Assembly: GCA_945877115.1 (NCBI GenBank)
Contig: CAMCQR010000013.1
Location: 1-40,426, forward strand
Direction: 5' to 3'
From: Synechococcus sp. UW140
GTDB lineage: Bacteria; Cyanobacteriota; Cyanobacteriia; PCC-6307; Cyanobiaceae
Length of the DNA stretch: 40,426 nucleotides
The notes beneath the pieces were generated by a model. It searched no databases, was not told the DNA's origin, and was given only the letters and a program-made list of their open reading frames with translations. The translations under genes were made by a program, and so were the position numbers. This document shows positions 2,602 through 40,330 of this stretch, in pieces (the first letter of the stretch is position 1; every line of letters starts with the position of its first letter).

Positions 2602-3471
2602 TCAGCGTTGGCTCAGCCCCAGGCCAGCGATTTTGCAACGCAGGCGCCGGCTCCAAGCCAGGGCCGCTCCCACTCCCAGCAGCGGCAACGGGGCCGGGGC
2701 GGGCGGCACGTAGGCGAGGCTGAGAAAGCGTCCAGAAGCAACGGTCCCACCGGGGCCCGTCATCATGACAGGGTCACGATAGTTCGCAATATTCGGCGTG
2801 CGGTAGCTCTGGAATTCAACGAGGGTTTCGGGACCGTGTAAAAACAGATCGGCAAACGAGAAGGGATCTCCAGAAGCACTGGTATCCAGTAGCAGCTGGC
2901 GGGATGCATAAATAGGGTCGTAAAAATTACTGTTATATAGATTCAGCCACACCCCGGTCACGGGGGAGCCCGGTGTGTTGTCACGCGCGGAAAGAGTAAT
3001 GTGCTCGCCGATGCATGGATAAACATCGCACGGTGGGGCAGGGGGAGGAGGGGGCTCATTGGCGTCCACAACTCGAGCGTAACTAGAGTTGGGATCAAAA
3101 TTGATTTCCGAAAGTGTCCCAATACTGGTGGGATCCAGGGTGAAGCGAAGTGAGGTCAGGATATTGTCAAACATTCCCATCGTTGTAAGACCGCGAATGC
3201 CGTTGGCATTGTAAATGTCATTCTCAAAAACACTGTGGTCAGTGTCAAGCTTTGTGGCGTCCAGAATGAAATCAACAAAATAGCGACTATGCCTCGGTGC
3301 TCCAACGATGCTGCTGCCGTAATCCAAGTCGATCAGTCCGTGGTACTGATAGGTTTTTGCGCTGGCCGATTGGCTCGCGCTGCCAAAAAAGATAAGGGAA
3401 ATCAGACTTCTCGATGCTATTTTAAATACAGATTTTTGCAACTTTATTTGCATCAGATGGCCTGGTTCCAC
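2602..3471 (-). CDS. Secreted protein with VPxPLP...SRRLR C-terminal tag
   Basis: This encodes a 289-residue protein of unknown function. An N-terminal signal peptide (LISLIFFGSASQSASA) is followed by about 230 residues that look like a beta-sandwich exoprotein. The centre has a proline run (EPPPPPAPP) next to a Cys pair (CDVYPC). The C terminus carries the tag shared by five other proteins in this window: APLPLLGVGAALAWSRRLR, then CKIAGLGLSQR. GTG 3471 has GGAG seven bases upstream. ATG 3453 (MQIKLQKS) is an equally reasonable start and gives a shorter signal peptide. Codon use is more AT-rich than in the flanking housekeeping genes. The tag suggests membrane retention or sorting, by analogy with PEP-CTERM proteins. 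Confidence 0.75.
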   Translation of the reverse strand: MEPGHLMQIKLQKSVFKIASRSLISLIFFGSASQSASAKTYQYHGLIDLDYGSSIVGAPRHSRYFVDFILDATKLDTDHSVFENDIYNANGIRGLTTMGMFDNILTSLRFTLDPTSIGTLSEINFDPNSSYARVVDANEPPPPPAPPCDVYPCIGEHITLSARDNTPGSPVTGVWLNLYNSNFYDPIYASRQLLLDTSASGDPFSFADLFLHGPETLVEFQSYRTPNIANYRDPVMMTGPGGTVASGRFLSLAYVPPAPAPLPLLGVGAALAWSRRLRCKIAGLGLSQR

Positions 3472-4710: not shown

Positions 4711-5065
4711 ACACCTGTGGTTGATCGTGCACCTGGCGCTGGGCTTAGCGTGGATCGTGCTCCTCGCCAGCCGGGCGCCCGGCGACTCCGGGATCGGAGC
4801 AACCGGGCCCCAGGTCTTCGTGATGCTGGTGGCCGCCGGCTGGCTGCCATCGCTGGCCCTGGCCTTTTGGCAGGTGAAACACCGCCGCTGGCGGTCCCTG
4901 ATCGTCAGCGATCTGCTGGCAGCCGCTCTGGTGGTTCTGGTGGCGTTCAGCCTCTACCTGCCCCTGTTCTTTTTCAACGTGGCCTGGTTCCTGCCGCTAG
5001 CCCTGCTGCCCCGGGGGGTGCTCAGCGAGCTGCTGGTGCGGTGGCTGCCTAGCCGCAGGACCTGA
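4700..5065 (+). CDS. Small integral membrane protein, unknown function
   Basis: This encodes a 121-residue protein starting MKREHLWLIVHLALGLAWIV. I see three hydrophobic segments: about residues 5-22, 38-58 and a long one at 72-105 (LLAAALVVLVAFSLYLPLFF...VAWFLPLALLP). Basic residues (KHRRWR) lie between segments two and three, and the tail ends RWLPSRRT. No family is recognised. ATG 4700 overlaps the end of the AraC-type regulator by 11 bases, which suggests translational coupling and a shared regulon. Its last 17 bases overlap the end of the convergent tagged beta-helix gene. Confidence 0.7.
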   Translation: MKREHLWLIVHLALGLAWIVLLASRAPGDSGIGATGPQVFVMLVAAGWLPSLALAFWQVKHRRWRSLIVSDLLAAALVVLVAFSLYLPLFFFNVAWFLPLALLPRGVLSELLVRWLPSRRT

Positions 5066-6636
5066 GACGTCGCCGCAAACGGCGGCTCCAGCCATAAGCG
5101 GCACCAATGCCCAAAAGGGGTAGGGGACCTGGAACCGGTGCAGCCAGCTGTACGGCGCCAACATCGCGCAGGCCGTAGGTGGTGCGCGGATTGCCGAATA
5201 CATCGGAAGTGATCACGCTGCCATTAATCGGATTGATGAGTCGGTTGACGGTATCCGCATCGGGGATCACGCCAACGAGCGGACCAGATGGGTTGGGTGA
5301 GGCACCGCCGGGAAGACCAAAATAGGTAACAAAAGGAGGATTGCTGATCGCGTCGAGCGTGTAGGCAACACCTGCCGTGATCAGGTTGGGCTGCTGAAAG
5401 AGAATCTCTAAATTGGCAGCATTCTGATTGGTAACGGGCTGGATATAGGAGTATTGATCAGCAGTGAAAATACCGGCCAGAGGAGCCCTGTTTGCGTGTC
5501 GTACGCACCAGAATAAGGAAACTGAATTCCGGCCAAGGTTTCATTGATAACAGAAACGGCACTTGACTGAAGGTTAATCATTCCGTCAGCGAAAACTTGC
5601 AGCGGAGCGCCATTGCATCGATAAAGACCGGGGCACAATCTGGAATTAGGAATTGTTGAATCAAGGGCATCAAACTGGACCGTGGAAGCTATTACGTTGG
5701 CCACGCCACCCGCAAAAGCTTGTATGCGAGCATATGAGGTACTCCCGGCTGGCCTCACAATGCTGTTAACGAGATTGAGAACCCCCGTATCAATTCCACC
5801 TCCTGAATTAGGTGCACCTGAAATGGAAAGGCTCGGGCCGGCAATGGTGGAAGAAACAATATTGGCGATTCCACCTGCCCATTTCAACGCACCTCCAACT
5901 TGCGATGTACCATAAAGATCAAAGATTGTTTTGTAAGCATTAAGCCTGGCATTAGTACCACTGATGGCCGGCACATCCCAATTGTATTCAGATCCAAATG
6001 AGGAATCCGGAAAAGGACTGAGCTTGTTAAACACAACTTCTGTCAAGTTGACAACAGAACCGGCTCCGGCGGTGATTGCCGATAGAGCCGTGTAGCCAAA
6101 GGGGACTAATTTTCTGATGGTTGAATTCGTAATCGAAACAACTGAGTCCTTGCCAACATCTAGAACGGCAATCAATCCATCAAACACATATGATCAATTG
6201 TGACATTAGAGACGTTATCGGCAATCCTTGCGAACGAATAAGCCGGTGCAAGAAGCACATCTCCGGAAATAGGATCGTACGCCCGTGATGGTATGTCCTT
6301 GCCAACATAGTCTCCGTTGATTGTTAGGAAACCCGGAATACCTGTCAAGGCGTGGCCGTTGCCTTGGATGCTGAGCCCAGAGGTATCGGTAATTTGCGCA
6401 AGATACCCTGATGACGCTTGATAAGGGGTGGCCGAATCATTGTTGATGTCGTTGAACAGCCTGATGGTGTCAGCACCGGGCGTGATGTTGGCTTGATGAA
6501 TGGCCCAAGCAAAGGAATTCGCTGTAGTAGTAGTACCCCAAGCCGCCTCGTTGACATCAAAGATCGCTGCCAAGGCGGGTGTGGCAGAGACTGAGGTTGC
6601 AAGCAGGGCAAGAAGGGCTGTGGATGCCTTGAACAT
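5049..6636 (-). pseudogene. Frameshifted beta-helix exoprotein with C-terminal tag
   Basis: This is one gene split over three frames. Part 1, from ATG 6636, has a signal peptide (MFKASTALLALLATSVSA, then TPALAA) and reads FDVNEAAWGTTTTANSFAWAI to a stop at 6172. Part 2 resumes about 6187 (FDGLIAVLDVGKDS) and runs to TAG 5408. Part 3 is open from about 5490 (APLAGIFTADQYSYIQPV) to TAG 5049 and ends PVPGPLPLLGIGAAYGWSR, then RLRRRLRSCG. Restoring one base near 6186 and one G in the GGG run near 5488-5490 gives one continuous product of about 529 residues. The centre has repeated turns such as VVSITNSTIRKL, VVNLTEVVFNKL and VVNVIASTVQF-like segments, typical of right-handed parallel beta-helix surface proteins. 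Either a genuine decaying or phase-variable gene, or two sequencing errors. Confidence 0.8.
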
Positions 6637-11673: not shown

Positions 11674-13378
11674 ATGTTGCGTCCTCTCCATCAGCAAATT
11701 GCCGCCGTAGCCCTTGCCACTACTTTTTCTACGGCGATTCTGCCCCGTCCCGCTGCGGCCGCTGACAGCCTCAAGTTGGAAGATGCCACCATCACCAGCA
11801 TTCAAGAAGCCTTCAAGAGTGGGCTGTTGACTTCCCAGAAGCTGGTTCAGCTATATCTGAATCGGATTCAGGCCTACGACCCGCTGCTGAATTCGATCAT
11901 TTCCCTCAACCCCAATGCCCTGGCCGAAGCGGCCGCCCTCGATGCCGAACGGGTCACATCGGGAGCCCGCAGCATGATGATGGGGATTCCGGTCCTGATC
12001 AAGGACAACATCGATTTCAGTTTGCTGCCAAACACCGCTGGTTTCTTAGGGCTCAAGGATTCCGTCCCCCCCGATAACGCCACGATCGTCCAAAAGCTCA
12101 TCGACGCCGGGGCGATCATCCTGGGCAAGACCTCGCCCACCGAATTTGCCAACTACCTCACCAGCGGCATGCCGGCTGGTTACAACTCCCTGAATGGCTA
12201 TACACTAAATCCCTACAATCCAGTCCTCCAACCTAACAGTGATGGTCGCCCACTCCTCTCCCCCGGTGGCTCCAGTGCCGGATCAGGGTCCGCCTGTGCA
12301 GCCAATCTAGCCACCATTTGCATCGGCACCGAAACTTCGGGATCCATCCTTAGCCCTTCCAACCAGAATTCCCTGGTGGGCATCAAACCCACCGTGGGTC
12401 TTTGGAGCCGGGATGGCATCATTCCCATCGCCGCCAGCCAGGACACCGCCGGACCCATGGCCCGGAATGTGACCGATGCGGCCATCCTGCTGGGGGCCCT
12501 CACCGGTGTCGATCCCAAGGATCCCCAGACCGACACCCAGACCGGTTTGGCGAAAACCGATTACACCCCATACCTTAAAAAAGATGCCCTCGTAGGGGCC
12601 AAGTTGGGCTATTACACCAAGCCTAATAGCAACACAGCAAGTGGAGCTGAGCAACTGGGTATTTTCAATGCCGCCATTAATAAAATCCGCTCCCTGGGGG
12701 CCACGGTTACCGAAATTGCCTTTACACCCCCCAGCAATACCTCAACGGTTCTTACCTATGAATTCAAACGCGGCCTGAATCTTTATCTGGCTACTCTTGG
12801 ATCCACTGCCACGATCAAAACCATCGACGATGTCTATAACTTCATCAACCAATATTTAGCCGATAATCCCGATCCCAATGGCCCCTTCAAATACGGCAAG
12901 GTCCGCATCGACACCTCCCGCCTGATCGATCTTTCCCCCACCAGTGCCGACACATTGAGGTATCTGAACGACCGAGCTTTGGATCTTCAAAACTCCCAAA
13001 CCTTTTGGAATTGATAAGTTCTTGGCTGACAATGGACTCGATGCCATTCTCTATTCCGGCACCGCCGGCGCAGGCATTGGCGCTAAAGCGGGCTATCCCA
13101 CGGTGATCGTTCAAGCTGGCTACCAAACACTCAACAACCTCAATCCCCTGGGAGTCTCCTTCCTGGGCAAGGCTTATCAAGAGGATAAGTTGCTTGGTTA
13201 TGCCTATGCCTATGAGCAAGGATCCCTGGTGAGAATGGCACCCAGCAGCACCCCTGCCCTAGCCGGTGAAACGATCATTGCTGTTCCCGGTCCCCTGCCT
13301 GTGATGGGCATCGGTGGAGCTTTCCTTTGGAGCCGCCGTCTCCGTCGTCGCATTGGCAAGGGGTTGGCCTTGAAGTAG
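11674..13378 (+). pseudogene. Frameshifted secreted amidase with C-terminal tag
   Basis: ATG 11674 begins a signal peptide (QIAAVALATTFSTAILP, then RPAAAA), followed by an amidase-signature domain. The Lys-Ser-Ser triad is present: GIPVLIKDNID (K110), LSPGGSSAGSGSACAANL (cis-Ser about 200) and GTETSGSILSPS (Ser about 224). Frame 1 stops at 13012-13014 after LQNSQTFWN. If the TTTT run at 13003-13006 had three Ts the frame would continue TFGIDKFLADNGLDAILY to TAG 13378, a product of about 567 residues. The end is VPGPLPVMGIGGAFLWSRR, then LRRRIGKGLALK, the tag seen in five other proteins here. Without the fix the enzyme loses the last part of its fold and the tag. Substrate unknown; amidase-signature enzymes hydrolyse amides or peptides. 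Confidence 0.8.
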
Positions 13379-13426
13379 ACCATTTCCAAAGGGCGACCCT
13401 GTCTCGCTTTGGCATGGAAAGAAAGC

Positions 13427-13455
13427 AGGCGACGGATTCTCCGCCGCCTTTTTTT
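13427..13455 (+). terminator. Intrinsic terminator after the tagged amidase
   Basis: The stem aggcgacgga (13427-13436) / tccgccgcct (13440-13449) is 10 pairs with one A-C mismatch and a TTC loop, followed by a run of Ts to 13455. It sits about 50 bases after the amidase stop. Confidence 0.8.
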
Positions 13456-13515
13456 GTGATTTCTTTAGGTTGGCTTTAAGTTTTGCTAAGATATAGGAAA
13501 TTTGTCTGCTGGTCC

Positions 13516-14178
13516 GTGGTCAGGTTTGCTTCGGCTTGTTTTCTGAGATTCAACTTTGTTCCTTGTTCCCCTGCTGTTCCAGCGATGGGAACCGCCTTGG
13601 CCTTGGCCCTGGCGCTCAGTGGGACCCTAGCCCCCAAGGCCCATGGGGCCTGTCTCACCACAGTCGCCGAAAATAACTGTGCCACTTTTGATGCCTCGAC
13701 GCCAAGCATGGCCACACAGACCTTTACTTCTGCCAACCTGCAAACAAATCGCTATTTTCAGCTTGCTTTGCTCACCAATGGCGGAGTTTCCTATACTATT
13801 ACTGGCCTATCCTATAGCAATGACAATATAACTTTTACCAACTTCAGCCCCACCTCCTTGAGCCTCAATGCCAATGGCACAAGATCTTACACCAATATTG
13901 TTGACAACGTCATTAACCTCTCATCACCTTTTTATCTTCGCTATACGCTGCCAACGGGCGTGGCCCCTGGAAGTGTTATACAGGGAACATTGATTGCCAA
14001 TAATGATGGAGACAATAATCTTGGAATCCTATCAGACTCTCTCAATAATTACCAATTAATCAACCGTGACTCCGCCTCCGTGTCCGTAAGCTCTGCAGTG
14101 CCTGCGCCACTGCCCGTCTTGGGAGCCGCTGGATTCTTTGCCTACAGTCGTCAACTGCGTCGCCGAATTCGTTTTTGA
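13516..14178 (+). CDS. Small secreted beta-rich protein with C-terminal tag
   Basis: This encodes about 220 residues. A signal peptide (AMGTALALALALSGTLAP, then KAHGA) is followed by a Ser/Thr/Asn-rich domain of beta strands (YFQLALLTNGGVSYTITGLS, NITFTNFSPTSLSLNANG) and an end of AVPAPLPVLGAAGFFAYSR, then QLRRRIRF. The start is uncertain: TTG 13483, GTG 13516 and ATG 13585 are all in frame. GTG 13516 keeps an arginine-containing n-region and lies just after a possible -10 (TATAGG, 13492). The stop TGA (14176-14178) overlaps the ATG of the HpsJ-like gene (TGATG), so the tagged protein and HpsJ-like protein are translationally coupled. The function of the mature domain is unknown. Confidence 0.75.
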   Translation: MVRFASACFLRFNFVPCSPAVPAMGTALALALALSGTLAPKAHGACLTTVAENNCATFDASTPSMATQTFTSANLQTNRYFQLALLTNGGVSYTITGLSYSNDNITFTNFSPTSLSLNANGTRSYTNIVDNVINLSSPFYLRYTLPTGVAPGSVIQGTLIANNDGDNNLGILSDSLNNYQLINRDSASVSVSSAVPAPLPVLGAAGFFAYSRQLRRRIRF

Positions 14179-14990
14179 TGACCCGTGCCTTTCCCCCCCA
14201 GGATCAAGACAATTTGGGTAGCCAAGTTCCGGTTACGTTTTCAGAGCCTGAGGCGCCCCAACAGGAGCAAGATCGAAGCCTCGGACGCCTGATCTATGAG
14301 TGCGGGCTACTGCTGCGGCTCGGTGGGCTGGGCCTGATTGGCGTCTATTTGGTTTTGGTGCTCAGCCAGTTATTTCCCCTGCAGCTGCTGAAACCCCAAT
14401 GGCAGCTGGATGTCATTGCCAGTCTCTGTGGTGCCGGCAGTTTTGCCCTAGAGGGGGCGCTGTTCATCCTGGTGGCAGAACGCCTTGATGTCATCTCTCC
14501 CGCCAACTTCCAGTGGAGCAGCCGCATCCGCCACCTGGCCCTGCCCGCTGGTCTGGGTTTCTTGCTGCTGATTCCCTTGCATATGAGCGCAACGCAACGA
14601 CTGATTGGCCAACAGAAACTTCAAGATCAAAAGTTGCTGGTTCATCTGCAGGACACCAAACAGCAAATTGCTGATGCCCAATCCCCAGCAGCCTTGCAGA
14701 ATGCGATTTTACCTCTGCAATTGAATCCGACCCCAACAATTCCCTCCAATCCCGCCAGCTTCCCGCTGATCCGTAATTCCCTGCTGCGGGATTTACAGCC
14801 CCAATTGGTACGGATTCAGGAGTCCATTCAGAACAAGCAAAAAAGTTTTGCCGCATCGGCCAATAAAATCCTTATCAAAAATTCTTTGGTAGCCCTTGTT
14901 TACGCAGCGGTCTTTCTGGCGATCACCGCTACGGCCAGCGGTCGTCGCATGGTTCCCCAAGATGTGGTTTCAGCAGGTCCGACTGACTGA
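14178..14990 (+). CDS. HpsJ-like membrane protein (exosortase-associated type)
   Basis: This encodes 270 residues. A disordered N terminus (to about 35) is followed by four hydrophobic segments: LLLRLGGLGLIGVYLVLVLS, VIASLCGAGSFALEGALFIL, LALPAGLGFLLLIPLHMSAT and, near the C terminus, LVALVYAAVFLAITATASG. Between helices 3 and 4 lies a long Gln-rich periplasmic coiled coil (TQRLIGQQKLQDQKLLVHLQ, DTKQQIADAQ). This order, with the LIPL-x-x-x-xx-RL..Q junction, matches HpsJ proteins, known from hormogonium polysaccharide secretion and from HpsJ-like proteins next to cyanobacterial exosortases. The start ATG 14178 overlaps the previous stop. Its coupling to a tagged exoprotein is the best clue to its job in export or anchoring. 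The HpsJ assignment is from layout and motif memory. Confidence 0.6.
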   Translation: MTRAFPPQDQDNLGSQVPVTFSEPEAPQQEQDRSLGRLIYECGLLLRLGGLGLIGVYLVLVLSQLFPLQLLKPQWQLDVIASLCGAGSFALEGALFILVAERLDVISPANFQWSSRIRHLALPAGLGFLLLIPLHMSATQRLIGQQKLQDQKLLVHLQDTKQQIADAQSPAALQNAILPLQLNPTPTIPSNPASFPLIRNSLLRDLQPQLVRIQESIQNKQKSFAASANKILIKNSLVALVYAAVFLAITATASGRRMVPQDVVSAGPTD

Positions 14991-15062
14991 AACCATCGAT
15001 AGCAATACAGACCTTAAGCAAGTCGATTTTCGCTTCATCTCAGTTTTAATTCGTTTCTGACC

Positions 15063-15088
15063 TGTCAATCGTCCTGGGCTGATTGACA
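15063..15088. repeat. Inverted repeat downstream of the HpsJ-like gene
   Basis: tgtcaatc (15063-15070) and gattgaca (15081-15088) form a perfect 8-bp inverted repeat around a 10-base spacer. No T-run follows, so it is not a standard intrinsic terminator; it could be a protein-binding site or an RNA hairpin. Confidence 0.6.
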
Positions 15089-15171
15089 CGTCGAAGTGCT
15101 GCGTGCGCTTGCCGGGCCCCAGGCTTTGGCCCAATTTTTCGACTGTCACAGTCGTCTTAAAGAATTCGCTT

Positions 15172-15197
15172 AAATACTTAAGACTGCATAAGTATTT
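15172..15197. repeat. AT-rich inverted repeat upstream of the lectin gene
   Basis: aaatactta (15172-15180) and taagtattt (15189-15197) form a perfect 9-bp inverted repeat with an 8-base spacer. With a small bulge the pairing extends outward (cttaa / ttaag). It lies about 65 bases before the likely lectin start. A shorter palindrome, cgactg-tca-cagtcg, sits at 15140-15154. These could be operator sites; no factor can be named. Confidence 0.6.
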
Positions 15198-15260
15198 GTT
15201 AAGCTTCCCTTGGCCTTTCCCGCGCCTATACTGAGTATTTTGGAAAATCCATTTACATTA

Positions 15261-15956
15261 GTGTATTTTGGCATTTCCAGCATTCCCTCGCCAAGGAACT
15301 TTCTACGGCCAACCGTCTCAACCATTGCCCTTGGAATCGCCTTAGCTTTGTCCACCATTCCAGCGGCTCAGGCCTATAGCGAGGTCGTCTCATTCACCTA
15401 CGACGGTCGCACATATAAAGCTTATAACAATACATCGCCAATTACCTGGTCTGAAGCCCGTGACTATGCACTCTCCGTGGGCGGCGATTTAGTGAGTTTG
15501 AATACTCTGGCGGAGAATACGGCTGTTTTCGCTCAAATCGGATATTCGAGTATTCCTAGTTTATGGAATTCAGTCCCCGGTTCTCAATTTGTTGGGCCTT
15601 ATATCGGCCTTTTTCAACCGATTGCAACTGACGTTACAACAGGATGGCGATGGGTTGACGGTTCTTTGCTTGGCAGTGACAGTTGGTATCCCACGCAACC
15701 AGACAATGGTTACGGAGTAGAGAACGTAGCGCTATATTTTAATCAAGTAAGTCAATGGGCTGATATTTACGATTGTTCAACTACCTCTGTTCCATGTTCA
15801 GCCAATAACCAACCGGCTAATGATTATCGATCTCAATCGTTCATTGTCGAATTTGACCCAGTTCCTGTTCCCGCTCCAGTTCCAATGTTTGGTGCTATAG
15901 CAGCCTTAGGCTGGGCTCGCCGCCTTCGCAGTCGCGCCAAATCTATCAATATCTAA
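15261..15956 (+). CDS. Secreted C-type lectin domain protein with C-terminal tag
   Basis: This encodes about 231 residues. The signal peptide is STIALGIALALSTIPAAQA. The domain that follows has C-type lectin-like features: YKAYNNTSPITWSEARDYA, LSVGGDLVSLNTLAEN, then GPYIGLFQP, GWRWVDGSLLGSDSWYPTQP, DNGYGVENVALYF and QWADIYDCS. The usual WxDxxC-like and QPDN elements suggest a Ca2+/sugar-binding fold. The end is PVPAPVPMFGAIAALGWARR, then LRSRAKSINI, a divergent version of the shared tag (A for S, one R lost). GTG 15261 is the likely start; TTG 15210 is in frame. A surface-exposed glycan-binding protein is the simplest reading. Confidence 0.75.
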   Translation: MYFGISSIPSPRNFLRPTVSTIALGIALALSTIPAAQAYSEVVSFTYDGRTYKAYNNTSPITWSEARDYALSVGGDLVSLNTLAENTAVFAQIGYSSIPSLWNSVPGSQFVGPYIGLFQPIATDVTTGWRWVDGSLLGSDSWYPTQPDNGYGVENVALYFNQVSQWADIYDCSTTSVPCSANNQPANDYRSQSFIVEFDPVPVPAPVPMFGAIAALGWARRLRSRAKSINI

Positions 15957-39988: not shown

Positions 39989-40330
39989 TCAAGCCTTGCG
40001 GGGGTTGGCTTGGGCGACTCGGCGCCGCAACTGGCGGCTCCAGCCGAAGGCGGCACCGATGCCGACTATGGGTAGGGGACCGGGGACAGGATTAGAGCCT
40101 CGAATTCCCGAATCAAATGAGAAGATGGCCCCAAGATCATTGGCACCGCCGAAGGTGGTAGAGCCGTAATAGAGGCCATTCCCCGCTGCGGTCAGTGCTG
40201 CATCGGGATAAGCGCCATTGGACCCAGTGAAGCTGTCTTGAAGGGTGATCCCTGGGGACGCGATGCCCGCAAGGGGCGTGAAACAAGTTGCTACCAGAAT
40301 GGATGCTGCAGTAAGAGTGGAGAAATGCAT
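39989..40330 (-). CDS. Mini secreted protein with one Gloeo_Verruco-like repeat and tag
   Basis: This encodes 113 residues from ATG 40330. The signal peptide is MHFSTLTAASILVATCFTPL, then AGIASP. A single short repeat DAALTAAGNGLYYGSTTFGG, then ANDLGAIFSFDSG, matches the pattern of the Gloeo/Verruco beta-propeller-type repeat (LxxGxDGxxYGTTxxGGxxxxGTVFxL), of which full proteins have many copies. The tail is the shared tag: NPVPGPLPIVGIGAAFGWSR, then QLRRRVAQANPRKA. The tag DNA is close to that of the beta-helix pseudogene (for example ggtccccta at both). A complete but stripped-down member, perhaps formed by internal deletion. The upstream 96 bases are AT-rich. Confidence 0.75.
   Translation of the reverse strand: MHFSTLTAASILVATCFTPLAGIASPGITLQDSFTGSNGAYPDAALTAAGNGLYYGSTTFGGANDLGAIFSFDSGIRGSNPVPGPLPIVGIGAAFGWSRQLRRRVAQANPRKA

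Follow-up and report, generated by a model that had tools for sequence, protein, structure and literature searches.

A proline-rich C-terminal tag and its probable exosortase partner in Synechococcus sp. UW140 and related picocyanobacteria

Among bacterial C-terminal sorting signals, the PEP-CTERM/EpsH system (TIGR02595) is presented in the available sections of its source as a tripartite C-terminal module carried by many substrates per enzyme, with linkage to exopolysaccharide (EPS) and an exosortase marked by Cys, N-x-x-R and H-x-x-x-G (PMC1569441). In Nostoc punctiforme, cyanoexosortase B is accompanied by 35 putative PEP-CTERM proteins, nearby EPS genes and an associated gene downstream, according to the accessible part of PMC12188702. 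The GlyGly-CTERM/rhombosortase system was, in the accessible part of PMC3237569, connected by a modular tail, by co-distribution and by adjacency of tag and enzyme in single-target genomes. Here we describe a tail of this general kind in a 40,426-nucleotide stretch of Synechococcus sp. UW140 (Cyanobiaceae; contig CAMCQR010000013.1 of GCA_945877115.1), hereafter the window, which is contig C13 of a 2.71 Mb genome in 185 contigs (95.3% complete). We are confident that the tail serves at the C-terminus as the signal by which an exosortase sorting system recognizes its substrates, and it is most likely a clade-restricted dialect of the PEP-CTERM sorting signal that is mostly missed by current annotation models.

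A preliminary description of the window had reported nearly the same tail on six proteins with different bodies. All six tails are present at the positions given there, each ending at a stop codon when read in its own frame, and their alignment bears out the proline/arginine pattern with seven invariant columns (P-x-P-x-P, one G and R-x-L-R). The tag consensus is PVPGPLPxxGAxAAFGWSRRLRRRI. The three-part plan of PEP-CTERM (motif, hydrophobic stretch, arginine cluster) also stood, whereas the shortness noted for the hydrophobic stretch is slight: by our own count, the span between the first P and the first R has just about two residues fewer than its PEP-CTERM counterpart. A profile built from the six tails returned 43 matches at E <= 3e-5 in the UW140 genome, 37 of them outside the six, which places the shared tail beyond chance. 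After removal of one match that was not C-terminal (C30:20733), 42 C-terminal tags remained. All of them have an SRxLR-like motif 5-18 residues ahead of the stop, and the full PxPLP is absent from a few (e.g. C44:10396 and C55:1249). For seven of the 42, the open frame is too short for a comparison, being broken, truncated or placed at the end of a contig (both broken genes of the window are among them). The 35 comparable bodies group into 28 clusters (blastp E <= 1e-3), the largest with three members (frames above 100 aa, after trimming of 30 N-terminal and 45 C-terminal residues). The tail is therefore a module, although some tagged proteins elsewhere in the genome do have paralogues (clusters of 3, 3, 3 and 2). 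Pfam recognized a GDSL lipase, a DUF4082 and an NHL domain in one member each of the 35 (E <= 0.01), and NCBIfam one member each of ScyE (E 4.8e-60), Npun_F0296 (4.6e-5), PepA (0.0034) and XDP1 (0.012). The last three are families named as exosortase-dependent or PEP-CTERM, and ScyE and Npun_F0296 are counted among PEP-CTERM proteins in the accessible part of PMC12188702. The architecture alone would also permit a mere membrane anchor, that is, a short C-terminal helix with positive charges inside and no processing. However, one would not expect a plain anchor to keep P-x-P-L-P and S-R-x-L-R across 28 clusters of bodies or to follow particular exosortases, and we consider this reading very improbable.

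A candidate for the processing enzyme sought by the preliminary description was found, as the genome encodes one exosortase (PF09721, E 4.8e-23, 81.9 bits against a cut-off of 25.7), which TIGR04178 places in the exosortase/archaeosortase superfamily (42.5 bits, cut-off 23). Its best named family is cyanoexosortase A (CrtA, TIGR03763) at 103.5 bits, below the cut-off of 150, and CrtA is also the best family for 14 other picocyanobacterial exosortases scanned (61 to 132 bits, all below 150). Cys, N-x-x-R and H-x-x-x-G, a motif definition taken from the accessible part of PMC1569441, are invariant in alignments of 14 and of 30 rows (C196, N239, R242, H266 and G270 in the latter). The structure model is confident (pLDDT 84.5, pTM 0.79) and mainly helical, and no solved relative was found by sequence (E <= 1) or by fold (E <= 0.001). 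The enzyme lies in an EPS locus of glycosyltransferases and a polymerase-like gene, in which a WbpM-like epimerase gene immediately precedes it and a Wzc-like gene follows, all named by reading translations. The same locus (L112 5103-8653) also holds asparagine synthase-like and carbamoyltransferase-like genes, named in the same way. Directly after the exosortase stands a gene of 217 aa with no NCBIfam match at E <= 10, relatives of which (21 to 64% identity, tblastn E <= 1e-3) occur in 35 of 38 named exosortase loci, mostly just downstream. Named carriers of close exosortase relatives across these 38 loci include Cyanobium, Synechococcus, Aphanothece and Microcystis elabens, one of them being the culturable Synechococcus sp. 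CCY 9618 (L127). A 36%-identity relative was also seen on a contig titled uncultured Thiodictyon MAG (metagenome-assembled genome; L149).

A strong link between tag and enzyme is their shared distribution over 251 Cyanobiaceae genomes, in which tag counts per genome are lower bounds. An exosortase was found in 46 genomes (two matches in five of them), the tag in 36 (E <= 1e-4) and both in 34, so that 34/46 exosortase-positive but only 2/205 exosortase-negative genomes are tagged (Fisher p 1.7e-29). Conversely, 34 of the 36 tag genomes carry an exosortase, the two exceptions both being under 90% complete, and 12 exosortase genomes are without the tag. In a quick tree built from 50 exosortases, 16 rows form a clade with an SH-aLRT (Shimodaira-Hasegawa-like approximate likelihood ratio test) support of 100%. 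We call it the CTG clade because 14 of these rows have CTG as their active-site letters; the two others have CLG, and CTG is also seen in some rows outside the clade. All 20 rows of the clade that holds the UW140 exosortase come from tag genomes. The tag occurs in 33/34 genomes with an exosortase outside the CTG clade as compared to 1/12 with a CTG-clade enzyme only (p 1.1e-8), and it still tracks when the genus of UW140 is left out (16/17 vs. 3/217). The same split is visible within genera: in g35, G102 is the only genome with an exosortase outside the CTG clade and the only one with the tag; in g30, tags occur in 3/4 genomes with such an exosortase and 0/4 CTG-only genomes; and in g48, the CTG-only G083 has no tag. 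A rough search for hydrophobic-plus-basic C-termini at 15 of the 16 CTG-clade loci gave no convincing candidate for a tag of their own, and TIGR02595 gave one weak match each in G142 and G155 among the 12 CTG-only genomes.

The clade-wide occurrence proposed earlier holds for all 17 genomes shown of the UW140 genus, whereas in the family the tag is patchy (36/251 genomes, 10/59 genera). Outside the family it is rare, since in a phylum-wide sample of 292 genomes it appeared among the matches listed in only three (E <= 1e-5), all of the UW140 genus. A CrtA-family match (E <= 1e-10) was present in 76/292 genomes of a survey that covers the same sample as far as the listed handles show, and was above cut-off in 35; among the matches listed, the tag was found in none of these 35 (E <= 1e-5).

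Adjacency of tag and enzyme genes in single-target genomes is the type of evidence that was used to link rhombosortase to its tag (PMC3237569, accessible part). Here, a single tag was found in each of three genomes. G067 (1.7 Mb; L103 2212-4292) has the tag, an HpsJ-like gene (weak, NF050013 27 bits, E 2.6e-6) and its only exosortase in a row on one strand. In G102, the tag, an HpsJ-like gene and the exosortase likewise follow one another on one strand, and the row continues with a gene matching the exosortase-associated protein, while in G037 tag and exosortase lie on separate contigs. Further, G048, G108, G032 and G074 have tags no more than about 3 kb away from an exosortase. No other g17 genome besides G067 was among the exosortase or tag matches of the 251-genome searches. 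The distinct PEP-CTERM-like class suggested at the outset is thus supported by an exosortase in the same genome, by co-occurrence and by adjacency in two of three single-tag genomes, but we take it for a variant among exosortase systems and not for a wholly separate class. In this view the tag acts in the manner of a PEP-CTERM signal and is most likely cut by this exosortase.

Several observations weigh against an exosortase signal. In two tagged genomes, G096 (85% complete) and G103 (88% complete), no exosortase was detected. Conversely, G168 lacks a tag, even at E <= 0.01, although its exosortase falls outside the CTG clade. The one tag of G037 is not near its only exosortase, a CTG-clade enzyme, and the exosortase of G113 (L042) contains an in-frame TAG, though the genome has at least 17 tags. 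We split the genomes by exosortase clade when the tail counts were already known; because of this, and because the genomes are related, the co-occurrence p values overstate independence. In addition, the motif differs from PEP, and export and cleavage are steps that we infer.

Processing by another enzyme type was also considered. The tripartite plan is common to GlyGly-CTERM (PMC3237569) and MYXO-CTERM (PMC11980579), in the accessible parts of both sources, and 5/29 isolated tag cores touch the MYXO-CTERM model TIGR03382 at E <= 10, which would suit a rhomboid-type protease (rhombosortase or myxosortase-like) with the exosortase incidental. However, rhombosortase was above cut-off in 0/251 genomes, in a survey in which myxosortase itself was not searched for, and sub-cut-off rhomboid matches occurred in 209/251 genomes and in 14/14 controls. 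Because such matches are common, in all controls too, and none is above cut-off, rhombosortase does not track the tag over the 251 genomes and was rejected as its partner. The likeness to GlyGly-CTERM lies in the logic of the evidence, while the enzyme is unrelated; that a rhomboid-type protease processes the tag has, in our view, the slightest chance of the alternatives.

How far the tag is already covered by described families is a closer question. Among NCBIfam models, the enzyme comes nearest to TIGR03763 and the tail to TIGR02595 or TIGR04155, and NCBIfam already names NF050013 as an HpsJ-like protein, cyanoexosortase A-associated, so the tag might be a plain member of the canonical cyanoexosortase A/cyanobacterial PEP-CTERM system with nothing distinct. 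The enzymes do belong to the same superfamily, with CrtA as best named family for all 15; however, all 15 fall below its cut-off, the signal is PxPLP plus SRxLR instead of PEP, and the tag was not found, among the matches listed, where CrtA is above cut-off. In full-length tagged proteins, TIGR02595 matched 0/35 and TIGR04155 2/35 at E <= 0.016, although the filters applied to full-length proteins may lose some matches, because a tag scoring 17.6 bits in a six-frame search with TIGR02595 (the only one of 42 tags at E <= 0.05) went unreported. Standard CTERM models thus mostly miss the tail, with the exception of one window tail that, taken alone, passes TIGR02595 (18.4 bits, cut-off 16). When 29 tag cores were isolated and searched at E <= 10, 16 matched TIGR02595 (best 0.0021) and five TIGR04155 (best 0.00033), which makes a kinship in design with PEP-CTERM visible, whereas Pro-Glu-Pro itself occurs in 0/29 cores. 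Standard CTERM models were rejected as a full explanation, most matches being below usable thresholds, and canonical CrtA as a sufficient label, given the enzyme's score and because the tag was not found, among the matches listed, where CrtA is canonical. Membership in the canonical system is therefore improbable in our estimate.

Other described systems were compared as well. VPLPA-CTERM/XrtD (TIGR03370, TIGR04152) shares, by model name alone, a proline-rich motif of the V-P-x-P type, but TIGR03370 is reached by only one of the six tails of the window (6.5 bits vs. 25.35) and XrtD scores are 22 to 43 bits where matched (cut-off 400). The CrtB model gave 24 to 43 bits where matched (cut-off 300), and the Nostoc system differs in signal and lineage. 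By their own cut-offs, the tag is outside the PEP-CTERM model (with the one window exception), the enzyme outside CrtA and the partner outside HpsJ_like_A. The PxPLP tag was not met in the titles and abstract openings of the open-access papers listed on exosortases, archaeosortases and sorting signals or on exosortases or PEP-CTERM in cyanobacteria, and publication elsewhere is possible. Exosortase families have also been surveyed in later work by Haft and colleagues. No open-access paper was found joining PEP-CTERM with Cyanobium, none with an exosortase was among the matches listed for exosortase with Prochlorococcus, Cyanobium or picocyanobacteria, and HpsJ had a medical sense in the open-access matches listed.

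The genes of the window that bear on the tag and on its HpsJ-like neighbour are as follows.

2602..3471, minus strand: tagged protein 1, open reading frame (ORF) of 289 aa; tag 2614-2712
5049..6636 (upper limit from the preliminary description), minus strand: tagged protein 2, in three frames; tag 5052-5141, not in the frame of the start
11674..13014, plus strand: body of an amidase (PF01425, E 1.1e-67), the first of two frames over which a tagged gene is broken
13022..13378, plus strand: C-terminal piece of the same amidase with tag 13274-13363
13483..14178, plus strand: tagged protein 4, ORF with start uncertain (script: ATG 13585); tag 14089-14175; stop TGA 14176-14178
14178..14990, plus strand: HpsJ-like membrane protein (NF050013 77.8 bits, cut-off 140) with about four hydrophobic segments
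15210..15956, plus strand: tagged protein 5, ORF with start uncertain (script: 15261); C-type-lectin-like below cut-off; tag 15855-15953
39989..40330, minus strand: tagged protein 6, 113 aa; GloVer-repeat-like below cut-off; tag 40001-40096

Of the six genes, two, 11674-13378 (frame change between 13014 and 13022) and 5049-6636, are broken across frames with start and tag in different frames, a qualification to the original account that may reflect faulty assembly or decay of the genes. A tagged gene that looks intact and whose start resembles that of tagged protein 2 ends at G000:C10:34470. Signal peptides were called by a crude hydropathy script and are indicative only, the calls being biased because the script chose the best-scoring start codon.

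The HpsJ-like gene noted beside the tagged genes matches NF050013 below cut-off, and its ATG (14178-14180) overlaps the stop of the preceding tagged gene (TGATG). NF050013 matched in 140/251 genomes at E <= 1e-5 and in 0/251 above the cut-off of 140. The 17 genomes of the UW140 genus have from 5 to at least 11 matches each. Outside that genus, counts of three or more are confined to exosortase genomes (G032, G037, G048, G074, G077, G108, G140, G180 and G230), and exosortase-negative genomes have one match, except G059 with two. In five genomes picked after the HpsJ-like counts were known, 31/48 HpsJ-like matches lie within 2.5 kb of a tag as compared to about 1.8 expected (binomial p 2.5e-32, under a model of even, independent placement that tandem clusters break), and for 21 of the 31 the nearest tag is upstream on the same strand. 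The counts are 13/14 in G198, 6/11 in UW140, 5/7 in G090, 5/8 in G062 and 2/8 in G140; the five other matches of UW140 are on contigs without a tag. The pairing of tag and HpsJ-like gene is new here and is not universal. Strict pairing is contradicted by G047, G082, G118, G137 and G205, which have 6 to 10 tags and only two HpsJ-like matches, and by UW140 itself (42 tags vs. 11 HpsJ-like genes among the matches listed). In addition, CTG-clade exosortases stand directly beside an HpsJ-like gene in at least 10 genomes (L091, L096, L097, L099, L100, L105, L107, L108, L110 and L111), nine without a tag found and G037 with one elsewhere; because of the nine tagless genomes, the HpsJ association is wider than the tag.

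These HpsJ data bear on whether a separate sorting class with a third part exists, in which some substrates would come with an HpsJ-like membrane partner of their own that delivers them either to the exosortase they have in common or to one specific site on the surface or on a polysaccharide. The basic unit would then be the cassette seen in G067 and G102, and Cyanobium-like genomes would have multiplied the tag-HpsJ pair and not the enzyme. We regard this as rather unlikely, the more so because several genomes with 6 to 10 tags have only two HpsJ-like genes.

For the preferred reading, an exosortase signal akin to PEP-CTERM, we infer export, cleavage, an acceptor and a role of HpsJ as follows. 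The tagged protein would be exported through Sec by its N-terminal signal peptide and would stay in the inner membrane through the tag's short hydrophobic part, its arginine cluster lying inside. The cyanoexosortase-A-like enzyme (Cys-Arg-His triad) would cut at or near P-x-P-L-P, and the cut protein would be passed on, probably to a surface or exopolysaccharide acceptor. The small protein encoded just after the exosortase and the HpsJ-like membrane proteins next to some substrates are probably helpers.

Picocyanobacteria are abundant in many waters, and to our knowledge little is known of their surface dressing. In a single genome, the tag marks about forty proteins as candidates for a surface or extracellular location, of which most have no domain match; a likely enzyme and two likely helpers come with them, and annotation pipelines could use its profile. 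The system is mostly one of one enzyme and many substrates, and it includes a naturally occurring minimal cassette that pairs a single substrate with a single enzyme. Further, the HpsJ pairing offers a testable role for a little-known protein family.

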